A stretch of DNA of 44,490 nucleotides. Origin: Thiomicrorhabdus sp. (GTDB lineage Bacteria; Pseudomonadota; Gammaproteobacteria; Thiomicrospirales; Thiomicrospiraceae). This document shows, piece by piece, positions 31,641 through 33,685 of the stretch. Position 1 is the stretch's first letter. Each line of letters opens with the position of its first letter. The stretch spans positions 1 through 44,490 of the forward strand of contig JALSJT010000182.1 of the NCBI GenBank assembly GCA_026989175.1, in the 5' to 3' direction. Made by a program: the position numbers and the translations under genes. The notes below the pieces were generated by a model that saw only the letters and a program-made list of their open reading frames with translations, ran no database searches and had not been told where the DNA came from.

Positions 31641-32048
31641 ATGGCCGAGGATGTTTCAGAAAATACCATTCCATTGAATACATTGCTCTTAGCCGCTCGC
31701 GAAGCACAAGGGTTGCAATTAGAGCAGGTAGCCAGCCAGTTAAATTTAGCGCTTGTTCAGTTAGAAAAGCTTGAAAGCGATGCGCTAGATCCAGAGAAAT
31801 TAAGCACCTTTGAACGCGGTTACGTTCGAAATTACGCGAATTTTTTGCAGATAGATCCGTCGGTTATTGAACGTTATTTTTTAGACTGCGACTATGGTTA
31901 CAGTGATTTACACTCAGTTAAAGCGTATGGCGGTACAACGAATAAGCCGTTATTGGGGGGTGGGATTATAAAATGGTTTTTAGTTTTGGTTTTATTGGCG
32001 CTACTGGTGTTGTTGGTTTTGCCAAACTTTCCAAATCTATTAACTTAG
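31641..32048 (+). CDS. Short RodZ-like protein: Xre-type HTH plus single TM, no periplasmic domain
   Basis: 135 aa; LLAAREAQGLQLEQVASQLNLALVQLEKLESDAL...FERGYVRNYANFLQID; C-terminal TM helix; rlmN-rodZ-hisS neighbourhood. Confidence 0.75.
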   Translation: MAEDVSENTIPLNTLLLAAREAQGLQLEQVASQLNLALVQLEKLESDALDPEKLSTFERGYVRNYANFLQIDPSVIERYFLDCDYGYSDLHSVKAYGGTTNKPLLGGGIIKWFLVLVLLALLVLLVLPNFPNLLT

Positions 32049-32049
32049 A

Positions 32050-32169
32050 GAGGTTTTTGCACGAAAGGATGCACGGATAGAAAAGGCTGAAATATGGCTG
32101 ATTGAGGTGGAAATCAGCCATATTTCCTCTCTTTTTTCTCTCTCGCACTCCCTATCGTGCAAAGGTCTC
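32050..32169 (+). mobile_element. MITE-like element copy R5, internally shortened (120 bp), upstream of hisS
   Basis: GAGGTTTTTGCACGAAAGGATGCACGGAT ... ATCGTGCAAAGGTCTC; perfect internal hairpin GAAATATGGCTGATT-GAGGTGGA-AATCAGCCATATTTC; perfect TSD TTAGA (32045-32049, 32170-32174). Confidence 0.92.
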
Positions 32170-32229
32170 TTAGAGAGCGATTGAACCAAATATTAAATTG
32201 AATACACAGAGCAAAGAGTAAAAGAGATT

Positions 32230-33504
32230 ATGGTACAAAAAATTTCAGCGGTTAGAGGGATGAATGACATTCATGGAGAGGGAGCGGATGCCTTTGATTA
32301 CTTAGTTCATACTGCTGAAACTACGTTTAAACAGTATGGTTATCGCTCTATTCGTTTGCCAATCGTAGAGAAAACAGAGCTCTTTTGTCGTTCGATTGGT
32401 GAAGTGACGGATATTGTTGAGAAGGAGATGTATACCTTTTCAGATCGCAATGATGAAAGTTTGACTTTGCGTCCAGAAGGTACAGCAGGATGTGTTCGTG
32501 CTGTAGTGCAAAATGGCTTGGCATACAATCAAATTCAAAAACTGTTTTATACAGGGCCGATGTTCCGTTATGAACGTCCTCAAAAAGGGCGTTATCGTCA
32601 GTTTCATCAAGTGGGGGTTGAAGTTTTTGGTTTGGCAACGCCTGACGTAGATGCCGAGTTAATCGTCTTAACGGCACGTTTATGGGAAAAATTTGGGTTA
32701 GATAATCTTGAGCTACAAATTAATTCATTAGGCAGTCAGGCGGCTCGAGTTGCTTATCGGGAAAAATTAGTGGCGTATTTAAGTGATTATAAAGATCAGT
32801 TAGATGAGGACAGCTTGCGACGATTGGCGTCAAACCCACTTAGAATTTTAGACACAAAAAACCCCGCCATGAAAGAGCTGGTTGAGGGCGCACCTAAGCT
32901 AATGGATCATTTAGATGCGGAGTCGGCCGAGCACTTTGAACAGTTAAAAGCACATTTAGATGATTTAGGCATTGAATATGTAATTAATCCGAATCTAGTA
33001 CGAGGATTGGATTATTATAACCGTACCGTTTTTGAGTGGATTACTACTGAGTTAGGGGCACAAGGAACGGTTTGTGCCGGTGGGCGTTACGATGGTTTGG
33101 TGGAACAGATCGGTGGTAAGGCAACGCCTGCGGTTGGATTTGCCATGGGGATTGAACGTTTAACGGCGCTGTTAATGGATCATAATAAGGTACCTGTTCT
33201 TGCACAGCCTGATGTGTATGTGGTGTTGGTGGGGGATAACGTACAACGTCCTGGTTTTGTTATTGCAGAGATGGTTCGAGAAGCTCTGCCACACATTAAT
33301 GTTCAGATGAACTGTGGTGGCGGGAGCTTTAAAAGCCAGTTTAAAAAGGCCGACCGTTCTGGTGCGCGTTATGCATTGGTATTGGGAGACCAAGAGGTGA
33401 GTGATAAGGTTGTGGCGATTAAGCCATTACGTGAAACATCGGAACAAGTTTTGGTCAGTTGGGATGACCTAACTGAGCATTTAGCGCAGTTAATGCCCGT
33501 TTAA
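32230..33504 (+). CDS. hisS: Histidyl-tRNA synthetase
   Basis: Class II aa[61 protein letters not shown]. Confidence 0.98.
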
Positions 33505-33524: not shown

Positions 33525-33685
33525 GAGACATTTTCACGAGAGGGGCGCGAGAGAAAAAAGAGATGAAATTTAGCTGATTGAGTCGGAAATCGCAGGGAAT
33601 ACCTAGGTATTCGCAAGATTTTCAACAAAAATCAGGTGTATTTTAGTCTTTTTTTTATCTGTGTATCCTATCGTGCAAAGCTCTC
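33525..33685 (-). mobile_element. MITE-like element copy R6 (161 bp), upstream of yfgM, inverted relative to R1
   Basis: GAGACATTTTCACGAGAGG ... CCTATCGTGCAAAGCTCTC; GAATACCTAGGTATTC; flanks TAAAA/AATAG do not form a clear TSD. Confidence 0.88.

Follow-up and report, generated by a model that had tools for sequence, protein, structure and literature searches.

The window analysed here, a 44,490-nucleotide stretch of Thiomicrorhabdus sp. DNA (contig JALSJT010000182.1), carries a short MITE copy, R5, in the spacer between a rodZ-like ORF and hisS (Table 1). A further MITE lies on the other side of hisS, which is therefore flanked by a MITE on either side. The TAG stop codon of the rodZ-like ORF (32046-32048) falls within the left TTAGA copy, as a preliminary description of this DNA had pointed out; its additional remark that the insertion kept the end of the reading frame intact is true but minor, in that TTAGA was duplicated and the left copy retains the TAG. 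Since the rodZ-like ORF ends at a comparable place in element-free congeners (e.g., G036, G016, and G037), this stop was probably not created by the insertion. The same spacer has been hit repeatedly within the genus: G039 has a full-length copy there, G015 an element as well as additional TIR remnants, G018 the remnant of one end, and G001 a decayed left half of the MITE. In the last of these (contig C254, locus L087), the TGA stop of the rodZ-like ORF is formed with the help of GA, the opening bases of the element. This half element occupies another position with respect to the ORF than R5 does and is therefore probably of separate origin.

Table 1. Positions in the window of R5, its component parts, and the neighbouring features.
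Feature	Position	Strand	Sequence and remarks
rodZ-like ORF	31641-32048		HTH_25 domain; adjoins R5
Left TSD copy	32045-32049	none	TTAGA; includes the rodZ-like TAG stop; a 5-bp TSD is the family rule
R5, rearranged MITE copy	32050-32169	+	120 bp; sequence and family search
R5 left TIR	32050-32064	+	GAGGTTTTTGCACGA; 3 changes relative to GAGACCTTTGCACGA
Tract that corresponds to the standard element's right half in reverse complement	32088-32115	+	Column census, 55 copies
Left stem arm	32089-32103	+	GAAATATGGCTGATT; perfect 15-bp stem; sequence
Distinguishing right-half bases	32097, 32104, 32105, 32106, 32109, 32114	+	32108 is the exception
Loop	32104-32111	+	GAGGTGGA, 8 nt; inverted relative to the loops of the short-core copies C103 and G039
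Right stem arm	32112-32126	+	AATCAGCCATATTTC; standard orientation
R5 right TIR	32155-32169	+	TCGTGCAAAGGTCTC; sequence
Right TSD copy	32170-32174	none	TTAGA; sequence
hisS	32230-33504		Other neighbour of R5
Further MITE	33525-33685		161 bp; between hisS and the next gene (TPR_21 protein)

R5 belongs to an abundant family. Sequence search of its own genome returned 133 matches to R5, and 70 distinct copies were extracted from that genome: 44 of 159 bp, 11 of 160 bp, and a remainder of some longer or slightly shorter forms plus R5 at 120 bp (the census was built from the searches and the extracted stretches, and decayed copies may be missed). The copies carry the TIRs GAGACCTTTGCACGA and TCGTGCAAAGGTCTC at their two ends, and the exact terminal repeats TTTGCACGA...TCGTGCAAA occur in this genome as 56 pairs at the standard spacing and one, R5, at a short spacing. 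These 56 exact-TIR copies, mostly 159-160 bp long, are dispersed and lack a transposase gene. A TSD of exactly 5 bp accompanies 50 of the 70 distinct copies, compared with 19 of 2220 pairings when flanks were re-paired at random, which establishes the 5-bp TSD as real for the class. The centre of the standard copy is a palindrome, GAATACCTAGGTATTC, flanked by the imperfect arms GAAATAYGCCTGATT and AATCAGTCAAATTTC. R5 represents a rearranged member of this MITE family, which is characterised by TIR GAGACCTTTGCACGA and 5-bp TSDs. A variant with a different left block (GACAAGGTGAATTGAGCGTGCTCAAGAGAGGGTACCC and similar) occurs at L012, L040, L059, and L075 (contigs C195, C23, C103, and C180 of G000), and these copies seem to form a second structural class within the family; at L029 (G000:C97:4404-4724), one MITE copy has apparently inserted into the right half of another.

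Correia, ERIC, and similar intergenic palindromic MITEs are 100-200 bp palindromic units that lie between genes and can fold in RNA. The likeness of the present family to Correia and ERIC rests on the general description of those families; no Rfam family reaches its gathering threshold for the element, and no description of this MITE family was found in the literature searched. In their termini, IS5-family MITEs with GAGACCTTTGCA-type TIRs, exemplified by ISNme1 (an IS5-family element with TIR GAGACCTTTGCAAAA) and by BrickBuilt of Porphyromonas gingivalis (PMC4596501), share the TIR start GAGACCTTTGCA, and BrickBuilt, like the family of R5, is non-coding with copies dispersed between genes (PMC4596501). 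In R5's family, however, the TIR continues with CGA, and the likeness to BrickBuilt was judged on the termini; furthermore, its standard copies measure 159-160 bp with a regular 5-bp TSD, whereas the TSD length of BrickBuilt varies (PMC4596501).

Two congeners, G039 and G007, harbour an IS (1254 or 1244 bp) whose TIR begins like that of the MITE, and the G039 transposase scores 260 bits against NF033581 (IS5 family; cut-off 140). No matching IS or transposase was found in the MAG that contains R5 (93% complete). The IS5-family element of the congeners is likely to be parental to the MITE, and an IS5-family transposase probably mobilised the latter, although none was found in its own MAG; because no clean TSD is seen at the IS copies of G039 and G007, the link between IS and MITE rests on the termini.

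Beyond the genus, profile searches retrieved relatives of the MITE in other families (L157, L159, L175, and L122 in Thiotrichaceae MAGs, L174 in a Chromatiaceae MAG, and L222), and in L157 the relative, too, is short and has a hairpin core. Among the matches listed, Atopobiaceae and Olsenella contain many units of 107-108 bp with ends like GACTTTTGCACGAGC...GCTCGTGCAAAAGTC and strongly variable interiors (L120, L131, L133, L138, L142, L146, L150, L181, and others), which are probably unrelated.

The core of R5 is a hairpin whose 15-bp stem (32089-32103 paired with 32112-32126) is free of mismatches, as the preliminary description stated. The same account held that both termini are kept and that the stem replaces a core of about 40 bp. 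Both termini are indeed present, but the left one has drifted by three bases; similarly, a 39-bp core has been lost, but the stem consists of pre-existing imperfect arms that were made identical. Over the same 15 columns, the arms are mismatched in every one of the 55 standard copies: 31 have three mismatches, 17 have two, five have four, one has a single mismatch, and one has five. RNA folding is predicted to be strong for R5 (z-score -7.6), but a full-length copy reaches -6.6, so strong overall folding is a trait of the family and not specific to R5.

The composition of this structure emerges from a column census, in which R5 was set column by column against the 55 standard copies, once using their left half and once their right half in reverse complement. 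Up to about 32087 R5 agrees with the left half, and from 32112 onward it is the right arm in its normal orientation. Across 32097-32114 the two halves differ at seven distinguishing bases, and R5 carries the right-type base at six of them; these bases (in the order of Table 1) occur in 0, 1, 0, 0, 0, and 0 of the 55 left halves and in 35-96% of the reverse-complemented right halves. The seventh, T at 32108, is of the left type, unless a C at this position later became T. The best source for 32088-32111 is the reverse-complemented right half of the copy at C52:10980-11126, with 23 of 24 bases matching. R5 thus consists of its left end, followed by the inner right half in inverted copy and finally by the right half proper. 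Arm letters have been converted to the type of the partner arm (G at 32097), and the spacer is inverted, with right-half letters in inverted orientation at 32104-32106, 32109, and 32114. This inversion is the decisive feature, and it was absent from the earlier reading of the locus.

One alternative, free of inverted copying, is a simple internal deletion plus ordinary point mutations that altered the left arm and the loop; a linear one-deletion alignment is possible (score 81). This explanation is very improbable and was rejected, since the six clustered substitutions would all have to land on the letters of the reverse-complemented right half, for which the probability under independent substitution to exactly those bases is near 4e-10 (a rough value at ~8% divergence), and a perfect stem would have to arise by chance. 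Alignment scoring in which a free-length deletion costs one gap and a template switch two gave 90 for the best switch model of R5 as compared with 81 for the best linear model. Full-length pairs gain at most 5 under switch scoring, but the short copy on contig C19 of G039 gains up to 9; C103 is uninterpretable as a control, having an extra left block. The score therefore favours a switch only mildly and is not decisive; the distinguishing bases, not the score, carry the argument.

Two further copies with a short hairpin core were found, one in the same genome (C103:7201-7220, CTGATTTTCGCCTCAATCAG) and one in a congener (G039:C19:11820-11839). Their loops are in the standard orientation, opposite to that of R5, as expected from simple deletion between short direct repeats, and the R5 core, when turned round, is one base apart from theirs. 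Core loss has consequently happened more than once, and the inversion in R5 is additional to it. The number of short cores in R5's own genome, two among the matches listed, fits R5 together with C103. No second copy with the R5 arrangement was present among the matches listed from 32 genomes of the genus. This bears on the possibility, raised in the preliminary description against its own reading, that R5 represents an independent family of short elements with its own consensus. Elements of 107-120 bp that share the TIR but are unrelated or shortened in another way do occur in the congeners G035, G036, and G039; nevertheless, the R5 core occurs once among the matches listed across those genomes, and the outer parts of R5 are those of the standard family. 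A separate family is thus extremely improbable and was rejected.

We consider it reasonably probable that R5 inserted as a normal MITE copy and that a single two-hop replication template switch rewrote its middle. Directly established are the mosaic build of R5, its inverted tract and exact TSD, and the uniqueness of this form among the copies searched; from these we infer a replication mechanism, a single event, and timing in situ after insertion. A strand synthesised from left to right would have reached the left arm (TGAAATA) and hopped onto the opposite strand of the right arm, where the same letters occur inverted, to be copied inward as ...TGAAATATGGCTGATTGAGGTGGAAATC; it would then have returned at AATC to the normal right-arm template and completed the element. 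TGAAATA and AATC are indeed the letters shared at the first and second hops. The outcome of such a path would be a deletion of 39 bp, two identical arms, and an inverted loop, so that one event would explain core loss, arm homogenisation, and loop inversion together. The suggestion made earlier, an internal deletion with arm conversion through template switching at a palindrome, is in this respect supported, and the inverted copy of the right half adds strength to it. Arm homogenisation with spacer inversion through template switching has been described in yeast (PMC8604942), and loop inversions by template switching are known from, among others, bacterial rRNA genes (PMC8794818).

Against a single switch stand the left-type T at 32108 (unless it arose by later C to T change), the indecisive alignment score, the fragmented state of the MAG assembly, and the fact that a two-step origin would leave the same end product. 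In the latter scheme, the core would first have been lost by slippage between the direct repeats that flank the central palindrome (GATTT or GATTTTCG), and a later template switch would have inverted the loop and equalised the arms. The non-inverted cores of C103 and G039 C19 and their near identity to the reversed R5 core speak for such a course, as does the occurrence of these repeats in standard copies, the longest repeat around the core being GATTTTCG in 3 of 55 and GATTT in 10 of 55. It requires two events, however; no non-inverted short copy is known at the R5 site, and the inverted tract continues from the converted arm into the loop, as one event explains. We regard a two-step origin as possible but rather unlikely. 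No genome with an element at the same TSD, which would represent the ancestral state, was found, the congener sites being empty or separately hit. An artefact of assembling a repeat-rich MAG is conceivable given 212 contigs and many similar repeats, but it is a very slight possibility: the TSD copies match, the correct genes adjoin on both sides, and the R5 core, which occurs in no other copy found, cannot be a join of two assembled copies.

The R5 stem and the T runs that follow it are scored as terminator-like on both strands (two predictions, against a shuffle mean of 0.2), unlike those standard copies of the window that were scanned. Between R5 and hisS, no sigma-70-like promoter was found. 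That template switching in the MITE gave rise to a new signal for transcription or RNA processing in the rodZ-like/hisS spacer is improbable. A real terminator would cut transcription into hisS unless another promoter exists, and a function for R5 is for this reason unlikely short of experiment.

The proposed mechanism, quasipalindrome mutagenesis, is a textbook error of DNA copying, and R5 does not constitute a novel type of element. As in quasipalindrome template-switch mutation (PMC8604942, PMC7202029, and PMC8794818), an imperfect inverted repeat has become perfect, the spacer is inverted, and short runs of letters are shared at the hops. R5 differs in having also lost its 39-bp core, in residing within a mobile element with many sister copies as reference, and in being known as an end product rather than as an observed mutation. 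R5 is thus a neat instance of known processes, and for the window the question of a separate element family is settled in the negative. With more than 50 sister copies as reference, it offers a clear natural example of a switch in a palindromic mobile element. Such switching can remove a core, produce a perfect hairpin, and invert its loop, and palindromic MITE families of high copy number could be used as natural counters of template-switch events.
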